Source: Halobacteriovorax marinus (GTDB taxonomy: Bacteria > Bdellovibrionota > Bacteriovoracia > Bacteriovoracales > Bacteriovoracaceae). From it: a stretch of DNA of 64,000 nucleotides. A program made the translations under genes and the position numbers. Every line of letters begins with the position of its first letter. Position 1 is the stretch's first letter. Below the pieces are notes generated by a model. That model was not told where the DNA came from. It searched no databases and was given only the letters and a program-made list of their open reading frames with translations. Positions 45,833 to 60,525 of this stretch are shown here, one piece after another. The DNA lies in the NCBI GenBank assembly GCA_002163155.1, contig MAAO01000016.1, forward strand, positions 62,001 through 126,000, given 5' to 3'.

Positions 45833-47902
45833 CTATAACTGCTCTACTACAATAGTGTCTGGTGAACAGAATGTTTGAAAGTAATCTTTCGATTTATCTG
45901 AGTATTCAATTTCTAAATTAATAGTTCCAGAAGTATCCCCAATCATAAACACTTTTGTTGCAAAGTCTGTAGCCTCTGTGTTGAACATACCATCTTTATC
46001 TAGATAGAGAGTTTCAAAGGCAATTGGACCGTTGTGACTTTCACTGGCTAGCTTCATTTCTACAATTGGCTTGGCAAAATTTATTTGAATAAGACACTGG
46101 TTCTCTAAGCTCGAAATTTCAAAAGTATCCTTAACGTAATTTAAATATTCTCTACTTGGTAAATGAATAGATTTATTATCCAAGTAGCCTGCAAAAATTG
46201 TTTGACCAAGATGGCTAAGCTCTAAATACTTTCTCATTCCAAGCGGAAGTATTGGGGCATCCATTTCATATAAGTTTAAGCCAATAGATCGTGAGGTTAT
46301 ATCTGAGTTAAAATATTTAATATCATTTTCTTCAATATTCAATTCTAAATCATTCTTCCCAAGAAGTTTTGTCTCATAGAGTTCAATCTTATCTCTTGTA
46401 CTTTCAATGTATGTATTTGATTCATAGAAAACATGATCTTCTACTAGGTGAACTATTCTTTCACCTACTTCATCATTTAAAGTTAAATATTGTATGAGAG
46501 TATTACCTGGCTCAACGCCAACATAGAGAATAAATCTATAATCATCACCTTCATCTACAACTCTAAACTTTTCACTTAGGTGAATTCTCTCGTGATATTT
46601 GTGATCAATATCTATACTATCTGTAGATTCATCCATTTCAATTAAAAGTAGAGCTCCTGGAATTCCTTCAAACCTCTTAAAGACGTCATCTCTTTCTAGT
46701 AAAGGAATATTAATAAGATAATCACCGTACTCAAGAGGAAGCTCAACAATTGTTGGAAACGTATCGCTACTTAATATTGTTCCTCTAATAGTAGAAACTC
46801 TTTCGTTAATCATTTCTTCAATTTCAATTGCCCCTATAGAACCACTCGTTTGTGGATCGCCGAAACTAACATCACTTACAAACTGAAAAGGAGTTGTGTT
46901 ATTCAGAAGACCCTTACCAATTACTCCCAGAGAAGTTTTTATTGTAAGCTTTGCATTTTTTGGATAGTCATACTTTTTTACAGAACTCATTATAGACTTA
47001 ACGCCTGAGTACTCATTCTTTAAATCTTTCGAAGGCGGACTCTTCTCCGCATGACTAGGCAAATGAGTACTCACACTACCGCCAGAAGATTTAGTTGGTG
47101 GCAACAATCTCATTGCATCTTCAATACTCAGAATTTTATCTTGTGTTTTTTTCTTAGGCGCCATAGCGACAACATTTTTTATTATATCTTTCTTCATTTC
47201 TTTAACAGTTTCGGTAACAATTTTTTGGTCATCTTTTGAGTAGTCAAAGAATAATAACTCATCCGAATCTTCGCTCTTTTTAGTTTTCTTATCTTCTTTT
47301 AAAACCTCTTCCACTTGAACATTATTTACAAGTTCATTTATCATGGCCTCTTCTACAGGATTTAATTTTTCTGTTGATGACATGGTTAATGATATTTTAT
47401 CTTGCTTCACTTCTTCTTTCTTATTGATCATTTTTGCAACGCTAGTATTTTTCTTTGCAGCTTCTATGTAATCAATATTTGGTGCCGGTAAAGTAAAGCT
47501 ATTAAGTAGTGTTGTCATGGCCACTGTTTTAATCATTGGAACCTCTAAAGCATGTAAACTGATCAACTCTTCATTATTAATAATAAATTCTGATAGATTT
47601 TCAGTTCGTTTAATTTGTTTGATATTTCTTTTCTTAGGTGCGTAGTTAAATCTCTTTAGGGCCATTCTATGAGAGGCCTTCAAGCTTTTATCTAAGTCGC
47701 TGAACAATGATTCGTCCTTGTTAACAACAAGTTTAGATTTCTCTTCATAGTCAATAGAGCTCAGGTTTTCTGTTAATAGTTTTAAACTTGTTAAATTAAT
47801 CTCTGTGTTGACGCTAAAGCGTTTATACAAAGGCGTTAAGACTTCGAACGAAGCTGCTGTAAAGAGCGTAAATAGGAGTAGAATAGATACATTTTTTTTC
47901 AT
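45833..47902 (-). CDS. Large hypothetical exported or anchored protein
   Basis: A 689-residue protein with a hydrophobic N terminus (MKKNVSILLLFTLFTAASFE). The first 300 residues are Lys/Glu/Ser-rich and low complexity. The C-terminal 400 are beta-rich, with DVSFGDPQTSGSIGAIEIEE and a later YGDYLINIPLLERDDVFKRF segment, and read as tandem beta-sandwich-like modules. I do not recognise a family. It is convergent with the MltD-like gene (3-base gap) and transcribed alone toward it from a 133-base non-coding stretch shared with the atp terminator. Confidence 0.65.
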   Translation of the reverse strand: MKKNVSILLLFTLFTAASFEVLTPLYKRFSVNTEINLTSLKLLTENLSSIDYEEKSKLVVNKDESLFSDLDKSLKASHRMALKRFNYAPKKRNIKQIKRTENLSEFIINNEELISLHALEVPMIKTVAMTTLLNSFTLPAPNIDYIEAAKKNTSVAKMINKKEEVKQDKISLTMSSTEKLNPVEEAMINELVNNVQVEEVLKEDKKTKKSEDSDELLFFDYSKDDQKIVTETVKEMKKDIIKNVVAMAPKKKTQDKILSIEDAMRLLPPTKSSGGSVSTHLPSHAEKSPPSKDLKNEYSGVKSIMSSVKKYDYPKNAKLTIKTSLGVIGKGLLNNTTPFQFVSDVSFGDPQTSGSIGAIEIEEMINERVSTIRGTILSSDTFPTIVELPLEYGDYLINIPLLERDDVFKRFEGIPGALLLIEMDESTDSIDIDHKYHERIHLSEKFRVVDEGDDYRFILYVGVEPGNTLIQYLTLNDEVGERIVHLVEDHVFYESNTYIESTRDKIELYETKLLGKNDLELNIEENDIKYFNSDITSRSIGLNLYEMDAPILPLGMRKYLELSHLGQTIFAGYLDNKSIHLPSREYLNYVKDTFEISSLENQCLIQINFAKPIVEMKLASESHNGPIAFETLYLDKDGMFNTEATDFATKVFMIGDTSGTINLEIEYSDKSKDYFQTFCSPDTIVVEQL

Positions 47903-54108: not shown

Positions 54109-54450
54109 TTAATTTTCTTGATCGCGCATCTTGGTAGTACCATGGAAAATAACGCCTTCCTCCACGATTAAACTTGGAGTGGTAATAGTCCCTTCGAACC
54201 GTGCTGGCTTGATGATCTCCACTCGACTCGAGGCATTAATATTACCCTTAACAGTTCCAGAAATTAAAATCACATTGGCGTTAATATCGGCATTAATAAT
54301 TGCGCCTTCAGAAACAACAACCGTATCGTTCGAAAAAATACTTCCATTAACGATCCCTGCTATCCTGGCAACTCCATTAAAAGACAGGTTCCCTTCGAAC
54401 TTACATCCCTCTTCAATAATTGCTGAAATATCTTTTTCGCTATGTTCCAT
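54109..54450 (-). CDS. Bactofilin
   Basis: A 113-residue bactofilin. The beta-helix core runs from GCKFEGNLSFNGVARIAGIV through GSIFSNDTVVVSEGAIINAD and GTVKGNINASSRVEIIKPAR to FEGTITTPSLIVEEGVIFHG. Bactofilins polymerise into filaments without nucleotide. In Myxococcus, bactofilins (BacNOP with PadC) position ParAB and the parS region, which makes its place directly downstream of parAB notable. Its upstream 66 bases hold two copies of the 16-bp site described separately. Confidence 0.92.
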   Translation of the reverse strand: MEHSEKDISAIIEEGCKFEGNLSFNGVARIAGIVNGSIFSNDTVVVSEGAIINADINANVILISGTVKGNINASSRVEIIKPARFEGTITTPSLIVEEGVIFHGTTKMRDQEN

Positions 54451-54466
54451 AGTTTATCCGATTTTT

Positions 54467-54482
54467 TGGTTCTATAGGACCA
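54467..54482 (+). repeat. 16-bp parS-like site, copy 1 of 8 (TGGTTCTATAGGACCA)
   Basis: This 16-mer is identical to the seven other copies in this window. It lies in the 66-base gap between the parB stop and the bactofilin start, 16 bases before the bactofilin ATG, so it could also act as an operator. All eight copies read in the same direction on the plus strand. Confidence 0.85.
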
Positions 54483-54492
54483 CACAAAAAAG

Positions 54493-54508
54493 TGGTTCTA
54501 TAGGACCA
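54493..54508 (+). repeat. 16-bp parS-like site, copy 2 of 8
   Basis: Identical 16-mer, starting 26 bases after copy 1. The 10-base spacer (CACAAAAAAG) is unrelated to the 11-base spacer of the array in mnmE, so only the 16 bases are shared. Confidence 0.85.
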
Positions 54509-54516
54509 ATGTATTG

Positions 54517-55440
54517 TTAGTTATTTATTAGGTATTCGAAAATATCATTAAATTCTGCTTCATTTGAGTATTTCAACACAACTTGTCCTGATCCATTCTT
54601 TTTTGAATTTAATTGAAAATGAAAACCTGTTTTCTTTTCTAACTTTTGTCTTAGAGAGTCTAACTTTCCATCAAAAAATGGATTAGATTCTTTAACATCA
54701 TTTGTAGATCTTTTAGATTTTATTAACTTTTCTAATTCTCTAACTGAAAGGTTTTCAGTCGCAGCAATATTAGCAAAACGTATAGATTTATCTCTATCTT
54801 TTTCAGATGCTAAAACTTTTGCGTGTCCAAAACTTAAAAGTTCTTTTTGAAGAAGTTCGATTACATCTCTTGGTAACTTTAAAACTCTTAAAAAATTAGC
54901 AACAGTTGATCTTTCCTTACCAAGTTTTTTTGCAACTTCTTCTTGAGTTAATTTATATTCGTCCATCAATTGGTAATAAGCTAACGCTTCTTCAACACAG
55001 TTTAAATCTGCTCTTTGAACATTTTCTATTATGGCCATGATCATTTTTTCACGATCAGTTGCCCTCTTAATTACTACCGGTATTTTTGTAAGACCTGCTT
55101 TCTTAGAAGCTCTTAATCTTCTCTCTCCAGCAACCAATTCAAAACCATTCTCTATAGCCACTACAATCACTGGCTGTATAACACCATTCTCTCTAATCGA
55201 ATTAGCAAGTTCTTCTAATTCTTTTTCTTTAAATATTTTTCTTGGCTGATTAGGATTAGTTTTAATTTGCGAAATATCAATCATTGATGGTTGAGTTTCT
55301 ACAATTGTTTGCTCTGTTTTTATTGTGCCAAGGGCATCATCAACAGACATTTTATTTTTAAGACTTCCAAGTACTGCTTCATTACTTGCACCTGAAATTA
55401 ATGATCCTATTCCCTTACCTAATGCAATTTTCTTTGCCAT
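54517..55440 (-). CDS. parB: Chromosome partitioning protein ParB
   Basis: A 307-residue ParB. The CTP-binding N-terminal domain contains GERRLRASKKAG (about 102) and ENVQRADLN (about 137). A helix-turn-helix DNA-binding domain follows (YKLTQEEVAKKLGKERSTVA, about 152-172), then a C-terminal dimerisation domain. ParB binds parS and spreads as a CTP-gated clamp. GGAG sits 6 bases upstream of the ATG. It is coupled to parA (12-base gap). parS-type sites lie 1 to 3.5 kb away. Confidence 0.96.
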   Translation of the reverse strand: MAKKIALGKGIGSLISGASNEAVLGSLKNKMSVDDALGTIKTEQTIVETQPSMIDISQIKTNPNQPRKIFKEKELEELANSIRENGVIQPVIVVAIENGFELVAGERRLRASKKAGLTKIPVVIKRATDREKMIMAIIENVQRADLNCVEEALAYYQLMDEYKLTQEEVAKKLGKERSTVANFLRVLKLPRDVIELLQKELLSFGHAKVLASEKDRDKSIRFANIAATENLSVRELEKLIKSKRSTNDVKESNPFFDGKLDSLRQKLEKKTGFHFQLNSKKNGSGQVVLKYSNEAEFNDIFEYLINN

Positions 55441-55452
55441 GTTACACTCCGC

Positions 55453-56328
55453 CTATTGTAGTTGATCTTGAGTTAATGTTGATTCATCACCAACACTTGG
55501 TACTTCTGGTAACTCTTGCTCAATTGTTGCTTCTTTCGAAACTTGAGATGCTACCGGGCCAGTTCTTTCTTTCAAGATCACTTCCTTGGCCAGTGCTAAA
55601 TATGCCTCGCTCCCCTTAGACTCAATATCATAAAGGATTATTGGTTTTCCAAAACTTGGACATTCCGCCAATTTAACATTTCTTGGTATTACTGATTTAA
55701 ATACTTTTTCACCAAAATGTTTTCTGATTTCACCAGTAACCTGCTTATGAAGACTTGATCTGCCATCAAACATAGTTAGAAGAATTCCATCCATCTTCAA
55801 ATCAGGATTTAAGCTTGTTCTAATGAGCCGAACAGTATTTAAAAGTTGTGCCAGACCTTCCATTGCCAAATACTCTGTTTGCATTGGAACAATAAAAGTA
55901 TGAGCTGCATTTAAAGCATTAACTGTTAAAAGCCCCAGTGAAGGAGGACAATCAATTAAAATATAGTCGTAATCAGCCATTATAGGCTCAAACGCGGACT
56001 TAAGCTTAGCTTCTCTTGCAAAAAGGCTTACAAGCTCGATTTCAGCCCCTGATAAGTTATTATCACTTGGGCATATATGTAAAAATGGTAATTCAGTTTG
56101 ATAGATGGCATCTTTCATTGGAACTAGACCAATGAGTGCGTGATATATATTAGCCTTCGTATGCTGCGACGCATCTAAGCCTAAGCTTATACTTCCGTTT
56201 CCTTGAGGATCAAGGTCGATTACCAGAGTTCTTTTCTCAGCTACTGCTAAGCAGGCTGCAAGGTTAATGGTAGACGTTGTTTTACCAACTCCACCCTTTT
56301 GGTTCATCAAAGCAATGATTTTAGCCAT
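55453..56328 (-). CDS. parA: Chromosome partitioning ATPase ParA
   Basis: A 291-residue ParA. It has a deviant Walker A MNQKGGVGKTTSTINLA, VIDLDPQGNGSISLGLDASQ, and YILIDCPPSLGLLTVNALNA as Walker B. A polar 40-residue C-terminal extension (about 250-291) goes beyond typical Soj length. ATP-bound ParA on the nucleoid pulls ParB-parS complexes. It is the first gene of the parAB pair and follows rsmG by 38 bases, the common origin-proximal order. Confidence 0.96.
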   Translation of the reverse strand: MAKIIALMNQKGGVGKTTSTINLAACLAVAEKRTLVIDLDPQGNGSISLGLDASQHTKANIYHALIGLVPMKDAIYQTELPFLHICPSDNNLSGAEIELVSLFAREAKLKSAFEPIMADYDYILIDCPPSLGLLTVNALNAAHTFIVPMQTEYLAMEGLAQLLNTVRLIRTSLNPDLKMDGILLTMFDGRSSLHKQVTGEIRKHFGEKVFKSVIPRNVKLAECPSFGKPIILYDIESKGSEAYLALAKEVILKERTGPVASQVSKEATIEQELPEVPSVGDESTLTQDQLQ

Positions 56329-56366: not shown

Positions 56367-57008
56367 TTAGATTAGATCAGATAGATTGACAAGATTTTTC
56401 CATTCTTTTTTTGTTCTACGTGGAACAATTTTATTTTTAAGACCTATCAACATTCTTCCTTCTGTACCTTCAAGGTCATAGAAACACTCTTCTATAATCT
56501 TCCAATTCTTCTCTACTGATTCAATATTTTCTTTCTCATAAAAGGAAGGTCCTTTGTAGAAAAACGCTAGTGATGAATCCTTCGTAAAGTTTAACTTCGG
56601 TGCAAAATCTTCAACTGTACCAACGGCCTTAAATGTAACTACTACTGGCAGATTCATCTTAATTGTTTCAACCCTATGGTGATAGCACTTAACATTTTTC
56701 AAGCCTAGCTTCTCTGCAATCTCCTGAACAACTTTAGCCTTTTTGGCACGTGCCTCGAATCCCACAAACTTCTTTTCTGGGTACAAGAAAGCTAGGGGCA
56801 AAATAGGAAATCCGCCACCAAATCCAACATCGACAACGACGCTAGTTTTCTCTATGGCATCTTTAAAGATTTTACTCGCCTCAAGGGGCAGTATTGAGTC
56901 GACTATTTGCTTACTGTAAAATTCTTCGAATGTTGTAATTCTGGTTAAATTTATTCCGGAATATTCTCCGGTTAGGAGATCTAGGTACTTTTGTGCAAAT
57001 TCTTTCAT
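56367..57008 (-). CDS. rsmG: 16S rRNA m7G527 methyltransferase RsmG (GidB)
   Basis: A 213-residue class I methyltransferase with the SAM loop DVGFGGGFPILPLAFLYP (about 68-85) and FVGFEARAKKAKVVQEIAE. It methylates G527 of 16S rRNA. Its start overlaps the mnmG stop by 4 bases (ATGA). A parS-type palindrome is embedded near its 3' end, where it encodes VPRRT. Confidence 0.94.
   Translation of the reverse strand: MKEFAQKYLDLLTGEYSGINLTRITTFEEFYSKQIVDSILPLEASKIFKDAIEKTSVVVDVGFGGGFPILPLAFLYPEKKFVGFEARAKKAKVVQEIAEKLGLKNVKCYHHRVETIKMNLPVVVTFKAVGTVEDFAPKLNFTKDSSLAFFYKGPSFYEKENIESVEKNWKIIEECFYDLEGTEGRMLIGLKNKIVPRRTKKEWKNLVNLSDLI
56412..56427. promoter_or_regulatory. parS site within rsmG
   Basis: TGTTCTACGTGGAACA differs by one arm position from a perfect palindrome and fits the bacterial parS consensus TGTTTCACGTGAAACA with few changes. 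It is identical to the site at 58891. It lies inside the rsmG coding sequence, 1 kb from parB. Confidence 0.85.
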
Positions 57009-58863: not shown

Positions 58864-58879
58864 TGTTCCATATGGAACA
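58864..58879. promoter_or_regulatory. parS-type site, perfect palindrome, between mnmG and mnmE
   Basis: TGTTCCATATGGAACA is a perfect 16-bp palindrome with parS arms and a CATATG centre in place of CACGTG. It starts 15 bases upstream of the mnmG start and exactly 27 bases before a canonical-centre parS site. Confidence 0.7.
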
Positions 58880-58890
58880 AAAAGTATAAA

Positions 58891-58906
58891 TGTTCTACGT
58901 GGAACA
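58891..58906. promoter_or_regulatory. parS site between mnmG and mnmE
   Basis: TGTTCTACGTGGAACA is the same 16-mer as the site in rsmG. It lies in the 137-base non-coding gap between mnmE and mnmG, and with the neighbouring palindrome forms a pair with 27-base spacing. The rest of the gap shows nothing further I can support. Confidence 0.85.
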
Positions 58907-58986: not shown

Positions 58987-60525
58987 TTATTTTCCGATAC
59001 AAAAATTTGAAAAAATATTATTTAGTATTTCGTCTGGTGAAATAACGCCTACTAATTCCGCAACCTTAGCTCCTAAAATGTTCATTTCAGAAGAAATTAT
59101 AGCGATATCACCTGTATCCCTCATAACTTGTTGAAATTTAACAAGGTCTAAATAAATAGAGCTTATTACCTGACGATGACGGTCAACTAACAAGGGTTTA
59201 TCTTGAGTTAAGCTGTTGAATTTCTTTAAGATCAGGTTTTCTATGAACTGATCAAGTGGTTCTATAGGACCAGATTCCGATAGTGGTTCTATAGGACCAG
59301 ATTTCGATAGTGGTTCTATAGGACCAGATTTCGATAGTGGTTCTATAGGACCAGATTTCGATAGTGGTTCTATAGGACCAGATTTCGATAGTGGTTCTAT
59401 AGGACCAAGATCTAAAATTTCAAAGTTATCAATGGTAGACGTGAGGTCAACGAAAATAGAGCTAGAGAAAGTTGGTAACAAAGTCATCAATTCATCTAGC
59501 TTGAACTCCCCTTTTAAGTCACGATGAGTAACAATTAAAAGGTCAAACTCCTCGTCCCCCAAGAATGTATAATCCTCTTTTCTAGTTTGAAGTGGATTTA
59601 CCACTAACACCTTAAAGAAGGCCTTACTGGCTATTTCTATTGTTCGATCAATTCCAATTTTCTCAATTTTGTCGTTAGTCTCACGGAGCCCAGCAGTATC
59701 TATTAAGCGAAAATTGTTTCCACCAAGGTTTAAATACTCTGAAACATAATCTCTAGTCGTTCCTGCCTGTTCAGAAACAATTGAGCGCTCATTACTAAGA
59801 AGTAAATTAAAGAGAGAGCTCTTTCCAGCATTTGTTTGCCCTATCAGAGAAACTGCAGGACAAGCAAGATCACTTTTATCAGACTTGATTCTTTTATGAA
59901 GGGTATTAAGTTTAGTCGAAAATTCAACTTGAGCAGAATTCAAGAGGGCCTCACACTGCTCCTCCCCTATATCTTCAGCAAAATCTATACTCAACTCAAC
60001 TGAGGACTTCAGTTTCAAGAAAGAGCTATGTAAATCTAAATATTGCTTATATAAGTCACCCTGGAGCACGTCCAAACCTTGATCAAGCATATAAGAAGAA
60101 TTTGCGTTTAAAAGAAGGTCTAACCCCTCTACTTGAGAAAGCGATAGTTTTTTATTTCTAAGAGCGCGATAGGAAAACTCACCCTCATTAGCATGCCTAA
60201 CTAAATCACTTTCTATGAATAATTTAAGGATTCTCTGTATATTTAACTGATTTCCATGAACACCGAGCTCAAGAATATTCTCTCCATTAAAACTCTTAGG
60301 CCCTTCATAAAAACAAAGAACAATTTCATCAATAACTTTTTCATCACAAAATAGTTTTGAAAAATGATTAAATCGAGGTTTTATTTTTTGTAGATCAAAA
60401 GAAAAGAATTTTTGAAAATCAAGAAGGTTTCTAAACCCTGATATACGAATTAAGCCAATTGCACTATTAGACTGAGTTCCAGTACTGCATGCAATTATAG
60501 GCTTATTATCGTATAAATGAATCAT
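58987..60525 (-). CDS. mnmE: tRNA modification GTPase MnmE with repeat insertion
   Basis: A 512-residue MnmE, about 58 longer than E. coli MnmE (454). An N-terminal THF-binding domain is followed by a helical domain and an inserted G domain. G1 is GQTNAGKS (229-236), G2 TTRD (256-259), G3 DTAG (276-279). G4 reads THRD (333-336) in place of NKxD. The C terminus ends in the essential CIGK. Residues of about 374-423 are six 9-residue GPIEPL repeats, inserted after the G5 region and before the last G-domain helix (LDQFIENLI). With MnmG it modifies tRNA wobble uridine. It starts 1 base after the yidC stop codon region. Confidence 0.95.
   Translation of the reverse strand: MIHLYDNKPIIACSTGTQSNSAIGLIRISGFRNLLDFQKFFSFDLQKIKPRFNHFSKLFCDEKVIDEIVLCFYEGPKSFNGENILELGVHGNQLNIQRILKLFIESDLVRHANEGEFSYRALRNKKLSLSQVEGLDLLLNANSSYMLDQGLDVLQGDLYKQYLDLHSSFLKLKSSVELSIDFAEDIGEEQCEALLNSAQVEFSTKLNTLHKRIKSDKSDLACPAVSLIGQTNAGKSSLFNLLLSNERSIVSEQAGTTRDYVSEYLNLGGNNFRLIDTAGLRETNDKIEKIGIDRTIEIASKAFFKVLVVNPLQTRKEDYTFLGDEEFDLLIVTHRDLKGEFKLDELMTLLPTFSSSIFVDLTSTIDNFEILDLGPIEPLSKSGPIEPLSKSGPIEPLSKSGPIEPLSKSGPIEPLSESGPIEPLDQFIENLILKKFNSLTQDKPLLVDRHRQVISSIYLDLVKFQQVMRDTGDIAIISSEMNILGAKVAELVGVISPDEILNNIFSNFCIGK
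59257..59407 (+). repeat. Six-copy array of the 16-bp parS-like site inside mnmE (27-bp period), copies 3-8
   Basis: TGGTTCTATAGGACCA occurs at 59257, 59284, 59311, 59338, 59365 and 59392, each exactly 27 bases after the last. The six 16-mers are identical. The 11-base spacer is GATTTCGATAG in four intervals and GATTCCGATAG in one. The 27-bp period keeps the mnmE frame open and encodes GPIEPLSKS units. The orientation is the same as the two copies beside parB. Confidence 0.95.

Follow-up and report, generated by a model that had tools for sequence, protein, structure and literature searches.

Within mnmE, which encodes a conserved tRNA-modification GTPase, the origin region of Halobacteriovorax marinus carries a tandem array whose units are translated as a repeated nonapeptide. 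The question which this locus raises is whether selection acts on that peptide or on the DNA which encodes it and, if the latter, which protein may read the repeated sites.

The array and its copies in the window

The window analysed here, a stretch of 64,000 nucleotides of the H. marinus genome, lies at the end of its contig that faces the origin and contains dnaA, rpmH, rnpA, yidC, mnmE, mnmG, rsmG, parA and parB, together with a bactofilin gene and the genes of the atp group (Table 1). A first-pass annotation of this DNA had described six in-frame 27-bp units in mnmE with a 16-mer identical in all of them, and a search of the window confirmed this description: TGGTTCTATAGGACCA starts at positions 59257, 59284, 59311, 59338, 59365 and 59392, with a period of exactly 27 bp and six identical copies out of six, the linkers of the encoded repeats reading SES once and SKS otherwise. 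The array obtained a Tandem Repeats Finder score of 299, by a wide margin the highest in the window. When the palindrome was scored on both strands, 17 matches with up to three mismatches were found in the window, as compared to a mean of 0.37 and a maximum of 2 following shuffling.

The 16-mer is a near-palindrome composed of two half-sites, TGGTYC-TATA-GRACCA. This property is an addition to the earlier description, as are the two copies that start at 54467 and 54493, the variant at 46829 and three sites of the canonical parS type. The exact 16-mer occurs eight times in the 4.55-Mb genome, corresponding to the six copies in mnmE and the two in the parB-bactofilin gap. The variant site TGCCCCTATAGAACCA is kept at the same place in four genomes of the same genus, and another variant copy is located approximately 16 kb past the end of the window. 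Scanning of the window with the DnaA-box consensus was uninformative.

Table 1. Positions of the sites and genes discussed, numbered from the first letter of the window.
Feature	Position	Strand	Context
Array of six 16-bp parS-like palindromes	59257..59407	-	In frame in mnmE, encodes (GPIEPLSKS)n
Two further exact 16-mer copies, 26 bp apart	54467..54508		Noncoding stretch of 66 bp separating parB from the bactofilin gene
Variant array-type site TGCCCCTATAGAACCA	46829..46844		In ORF 45833-47902, encodes GSIGA
Canonical-class parS TGTTCTACGTGGAACA	56412..56427		In rsmG
Two canonical-class parS, TGTTCCATATGGAACA and TGTTCTACGTGGAACA, starts 58864 and 58891	58864..58906		Gap between mnmE and mnmG
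mnmE, 512 aa	58987..60525	-	ORF; Pfam TrmE_N, MMR_HSR1, MnmE_helical
parB (ParB1), canonical chromosomal ParB	54517..55440	-	parS-type specificity residues
parA (ParA1)	55453..56328	-	Pfam
Bactofilin gene, downstream of parB	54109..54450	-	PF04519

DNA and peptide as targets of selection

MnmE has a length of 512 aa in this genome and approximately 454 aa in E. coli. The insert had been placed after the last strand of the G domain and before its last helix, and the AlphaFold model agrees with this placement in assigning a strand to residues 368-370 and a helix to residues 424-440. The same holds for the proposal that the protein tolerates the array as a loop, since the array residues (373-419) have a pLDDT of approximately 30 and are predicted to be disordered, such that MnmE is predicted to carry the array-encoded segment as a disordered loop. 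The occurrence of the array in mnmE would be explained by the tolerance of the loop between strand and helix to insertions, together with the location of the gene beside parAB. A literature search for insertions in the MnmE of Bacteriovorax returned no paper. As a separate observation, the G4 motif, which is NKxD in most GTPases, reads THRD just before the insert (residues ~333-337 of the product of 58987-60525) and T/S-H-x-D or similar throughout the family, which may reflect an altered nucleotide specificity of MnmE.

If the peptide were the selected entity, the GPIEP-type repeats would constitute a functional and possibly ligand-binding linker of MnmE with the DNA following suit, a reading with which it is consistent that the mnmE copies mostly occupy codon phase 2 and there encode Gly/Pro-rich pentapeptides. 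As choosing repeats by their DNA would bias a test of codon usage, they were chosen by the peptide pattern [GA][PS][IVLMT][EGDQ][PA] after residue 250, which yielded 172 repeats; the DNA pattern was exact in 154 of these and had a single mismatch in 14 more. Isoleucine in the repeats is encoded by ATA in 131 of 136 cases, by ATC in five and never by ATT, as against 1066 ATT (58%), 434 ATA (24%) and 326 ATC codons in the rest of mnmE. Glycine is encoded by GGT in 162 of 163 cases and glutamate by GAA in 75 of 75, while a T directly precedes 167 of the 172 repeats (background 43%). Binomial P values for these biases were below 1e-15, although they overstate the strength of the evidence because repeats within one genome are not independent. 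Relatives that retain the GPIEPL peptide with freely changed synonymous codons had been proposed as the finding that would speak for peptide-level selection, and none was found among the 172 repeats. The two comparisons suggested for related strains were borne out: the array copy number in mnmE varies from 0 to 10 between genomes, with spacings of 24, 27 or 30 bp or more, and the linkers have little in common from one genus to the next, in contrast to the nearly unchanged 16-mers.

The reading frame of the sites is likewise not constant. An array site encodes GPIEP in frame 2, WSYRT or CPHRT in frame 0 (in MnmG or MnmE of genomes G006, G068, G011 and G036) and VLWGQ in frame 1 (in MnmE of G008), and GPIEP-like peptides are present in YidC, RsmG, ParB, DnaA and bactofilin precisely where a site lies in frame. 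Against selection on the peptide, therefore, stand the unused synonymous codons, the presence of the same DNA in noncoding sequence and in other frames, the variation of the encoded residues themselves (GPIEP, GSIGP, GPMGA, APIEP), the predicted disorder, and the MnmE of G007, which lacks the insert while one decayed site remains in another frame; the notion of a selected linker is scarcely credible in this light. The codon bias, the other frames and the noncoding copies all agree with the earlier suggestion of selection on the DNA array and not on the peptide, and by these sequence comparisons selection acts, almost certainly, on the 16-bp palindrome, the insert being an array of sites at the DNA level.

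The accompanying statement that a coding gene hosting such an array would be novel was, however, too strong, since site arrays within genes are already known from the iterons of lambda gene O and from parS in rsmG of the genomes studied here. The first-pass annotation proposed neither a protein that binds the array nor a broader class to which its sites belong. The lambda origin comprises four iterons of 18 bp, located in gene O (PMC3349717), and resembles the present case as a tandem array within coding sequence, binding at the mnmE array being suggested by the selection on its sites. In lambda, gene O encodes the iteron-binding protein and its array is a replication origin, whereas mnmE encodes a tRNA-modification GTPase, not a replication initiator, and has no known link to the sites. 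What appears to be new, as judged from sequence, is a further class of ParB-type site, its tandem form, and its location in a conserved tRNA-modification GTPase with a loop imposed by the DNA. The sequence of a protein would then be set by a DNA function, with a chromosomal array forcing a disordered loop into a conserved protein. In this clade the insert would otherwise be mistaken for a feature of the protein, both by annotation tools and in studies of MnmE.

Two classes of palindrome in the origin region

Across the family, the array pattern may be written as TGGTYC/TGCCCC–NATN–GRACCA/GGGGCA, with the 6-4-6 layout that is also seen in parS. The arms are TGGTYC or TGCCCC, with two TGCC arms in only one of 234 sites, and the centres are TATA, TATG, CATA, TATC or GATA. 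Conservation drops at the 16-bp boundary, flanking bases carrying approximately 0.3 bit each. Sites outside mnmE are symmetric whereas those in mnmE are asymmetric, as expected where a coding constraint is added. Spacing between sites ranges from 22 to 36 bp overall, being mostly 24, 27 or 30 bp in mnmE and 22-34 bp in the parB-bactofilin gap, where it does not follow multiples of three; the minimum of 22 bp would be compatible with one dimer per site.

A census of palindromes that accepted either arm type was performed on 44 extracted origin regions (797 kb) and returned 239 array-type sites, 72 parS-type sites and a single hybrid (312 sites), with one site in total in the reversed-sequence control. 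Array-type sites (for example TGGTCCTATAGGACCA) comply with the parS layout in being 16 bp long, in their 6-4-6 arrangement and in their proximity to the origin and parAB, and they further resemble parS in occurring in several copies, some of which are intragenic. They do not fit the parS consensus TGTTYCACGTGRAACA, however, from which their TGGTYC/TGCCCC arms and TATA-type centres depart. Compared to true parS sites (for example TGTTCCACGTGGAACA), with which they coexist, they differ at the third base of the arm, TGGTCC versus TGTTCC, and at the centre, which is of the ACGT type in parS, and they are arranged in tandem. At the level of their sequence, the array-type sites constitute a family-wide, origin-proximal class separate from parS, and the fact that the two classes do not intergrade, with only one hybrid, suggests two reader proteins.

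The array pattern, with one mismatch at most, was identified in 120 of 129 Bacteriovoracaceae genomes, in 71 of the 73 with a completeness of 90% or more and in 47 of 48 genera, its sites lying almost always within approximately 20 kb of parAB; both of the more complete genomes without it belong to a single genus, g4. In other families of the same phylum, 2 of 38 genomes yielded a single match with one mismatch, and 76 mnmE loci of unrelated bacteria, which served as controls (1.03 Mb), yielded one match. Within the 44 origin regions, 157 sites fall in the kilobase bin of mnmE, 32 are located 5-7 kb from the mnmE start, around parB and the bactofilin gene, and 17 at 12-14 kb, past the atp genes, the stretches in between being nearly devoid of sites. 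The parB-bactofilin gap measures 33-150 nt where it contains two to five sites, as opposed to -4 to 75 nt where it contains none or one.

These figures bear on the possibility that the repeats represent a mobile or neutral palindromic element, comparable to the Rickettsia palindromic elements, or a tandem duplication of recent date, which in either case spread into genes in frame. In-frame insertion, identical copies, a palindromic unit and a variable copy number would all be in line with such an origin, but the exact copies are confined to the origin region of the genome and do not exhibit the dispersal of Rickettsia-like elements, while the conserved unit is limited to 16 bp with linkers that are unrelated between genomes, and extends across nearly all genera of the family. 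This explanation is accordingly considered highly improbable.

Several local departures from the common arrangement were also noted. A third array-type cluster is present beyond the atp genes, at approximately 15.9-18.4 kb (oriented), in loci L085, L087, L091 and L097, which represent several genera. Genus g4 (G007 and G163; L097) has lost most array sites as well as the MnmE insert, and a few decayed sites remain. In L101 (G035), the yidC-rnpA-rpmH-dnaA segment is inverted relative to mnmE, the mnmE array is retained with eight sites, and no bactofilin match was obtained behind parB. Genome G103 has 21 array-type matches distributed over contigs C45, C109 and C140, two of which are matched near their start, which points to mnmE fragments in this assembly that are duplicated or vary between strains.

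Candidate readers of the array-type sites

Candidates were sought among the ParB_N proteins of the genome, which comprise ParB1 and three more. According to the residue rule that distinguishes parS- from NBS-specific members of the ParB/Noc group (PMC7383237), ParB1 is of the canonical parS type, with Q162, K171, R173, N178 and G201 in Caulobacter numbering (16 sequences scored by script; the remaining sequences, as printed, have the same residues). One possibility is that ParB1 reads both classes, the array sites acting as auxiliary or weak parS that aid its loading or spreading near parAB. The common layout, the difference of one base between the half-sites and the position of the array sites on either side of parAB and parS are compatible with such a role, but the near-complete separation of the two classes in the census, the differing centres, the strictly parS-type residues of ParB1 and the lack of the motif in families of the phylum that possess ParB1 but not ParB2 render it improbable.

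ParB2 is encoded with its own ParA2 at a separate locus (L117:7366-9100), with approximately 375 kb between it and the array in G001, and was detected in 119 of 129 family genomes and in 72 of 73 of the more complete ones, although its co-occurrence with the motif amounts to approximately one evolutionary event as both are ancestral, core features of the family. ParA2 was adjacent to ParB2 in all 29 relatives checked, searches outside Bacteriovoracaceae returned similarity at the level of ParB1 only, and neither parS-like nor array-type sites were found near parAB2 in 30 genomes. Its apparent absence from G029 was rejected as counter-evidence, since the assembly breaks at this locus and parA2 is cut at the contig edge.

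The ParB_N domain of ParB2 is matched by PF02195 (63.2 bits, cut-off 26.3) and the protein by TIGR00180 (87.7 bits, cut-off 58.45), and a GERRxRA box is present. The Pfam HTH_ParB model gives no match, from which it may be gathered that the DNA-binding part has diverged; this part was consequently aligned by hand, and at the Caulobacter positions carries E162, I171, K173, R178 and Y201, near-invariant among 30 orthologues. A structure model of moderate quality (pLDDT 73, pTM 0.44) matches the folds of Noc, ParB and KorB. With a ParB_N CTPase domain, a predicted HTH fold and a ParA partner, ParB2 has the features of the ParB superfamily as far as sequence and model indicate. A Lys-rich disordered linker is present at residues ~235-263 in this genome, and the C-termini vary in others.

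A close precedent is Noc, which acts in nucleoid occlusion in Bacillus. It is paralogous to ParB, recognises a palindrome derived from parS but distinct from it, the NBS, and is likewise a CTPase with an HTH fold (PMC7383237, PMC8429893). NBSs are scattered round the chromosome (PMC4331003), whereas the array sites are packed beside parAB, and ParB2, encoded at a distance from parAB, is paired with a ParA2 of its own. NBS differs from parS at base positions 1 and 6 only (PMC7383237); the array sites do not follow this rule, as they retain the G of parS at position 1 and differ elsewhere. Nor is ParB2 a Noc orthologue, given that it has K173, S179, K/R184 and Y201 in place of the Noc signature Q173/K179/K184/R201 and scores 93.8 bits against a TIGR04285 cut-off of 315, so that its specificity residues are neither those of ParB nor those of Noc.

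Based on these features, ParB2 is probably the reader of the array-type palindromes. The main competitor is an unrelated DNA-binding protein of the origin region, such as a replication regulator, a nucleoid-associated protein or a transcription factor. Binding of ParB2 to the sites is itself deduced from sequence, two sites lie directly upstream of the bactofilin gene in an operator-like position, and genus g4 possesses ParB2 yet few sites. A transcription factor would nonetheless leave unexplained the up to ten sites deep in mnmE and their restriction to the origin region; the sites are, moreover, laid out in the manner of ParB/Noc sites, and a family-wide orphan ParB with altered specificity is at hand. 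An unrelated reader is therefore regarded as unlikely, if less so than a double role of ParB1. In genus g4, parAB2 is retained with an unchanged recognition helix although most sites are lost, which implies that ParB2 can make do with few sites or else acts on a different target; a second ParB2 specificity in this genus was rejected on account of the unchanged helix.

The mechanism that we propose takes the insert as an array of putative protein-binding sites near the replication origin, belonging to a second parS-like class, here named parS2. Dimers of ParB2 would nucleate at the individual sites and be loaded there in the form of CTP-gated clamps, in the same way as ParB at parS and Noc at NBS, and ParB2 and parS2 would form a second nucleoprotein complex beside that of ParB1 and parS. 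This complex may tether or position the origin region in a Noc-like manner, or may serve as a second partition complex that is driven by ParA2. We hold the account as a whole, with ParB2 on a parS2 array forming a second complex at the origin, with moderate confidence. That it amounts to a complete second chromosomal partition or anchoring system, ParA2-ParB2-parS2, with a respecified ParB and a centromere-like tandem array in mnmE beside the ParABS centromere, has in our estimation somewhat less than an even chance, and any specific downstream role of the complex is put forward tentatively.

Should ParB2 read these sites, they would represent a further natural ParB specificity class besides parS and NBS, and a natural experiment in which a ParB paralogue and its site have diverged without cross-talk. 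They would do so in relatives of Bdellovibrio, whose handling of the origin during growth is unusual and under study. Bdellovibrio bacteriovorus, of the same phylum, shares the gene order parA-parB-bactofilin and carries two parS in the vicinity of its origin (PMC10547168, PMC7186360), and no second ParB has been recognised beside its extra ParA proteins (PMC7186360); a report of an mnmE-type array in this species was not found in the literature. In Myxococcus, the ParB-like PadC and bactofilins organise the chromosomal ParABS system (PMC5703909), and a bactofilin gene follows parB here as well, although no site array has been described there.

Two other ParB_N proteins were considered as readers and rejected on account of their range: the C1 protein is patchily distributed in the family and absent from the well-assembled genomes G009 and G020, which have four to five mnmE sites, and the C14 protein is present in this genome alone. 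The patchily distributed one, a third ParB_N protein besides ParB1 and ParB2 (L122:847-1752), is encoded without an adjacent ParA.
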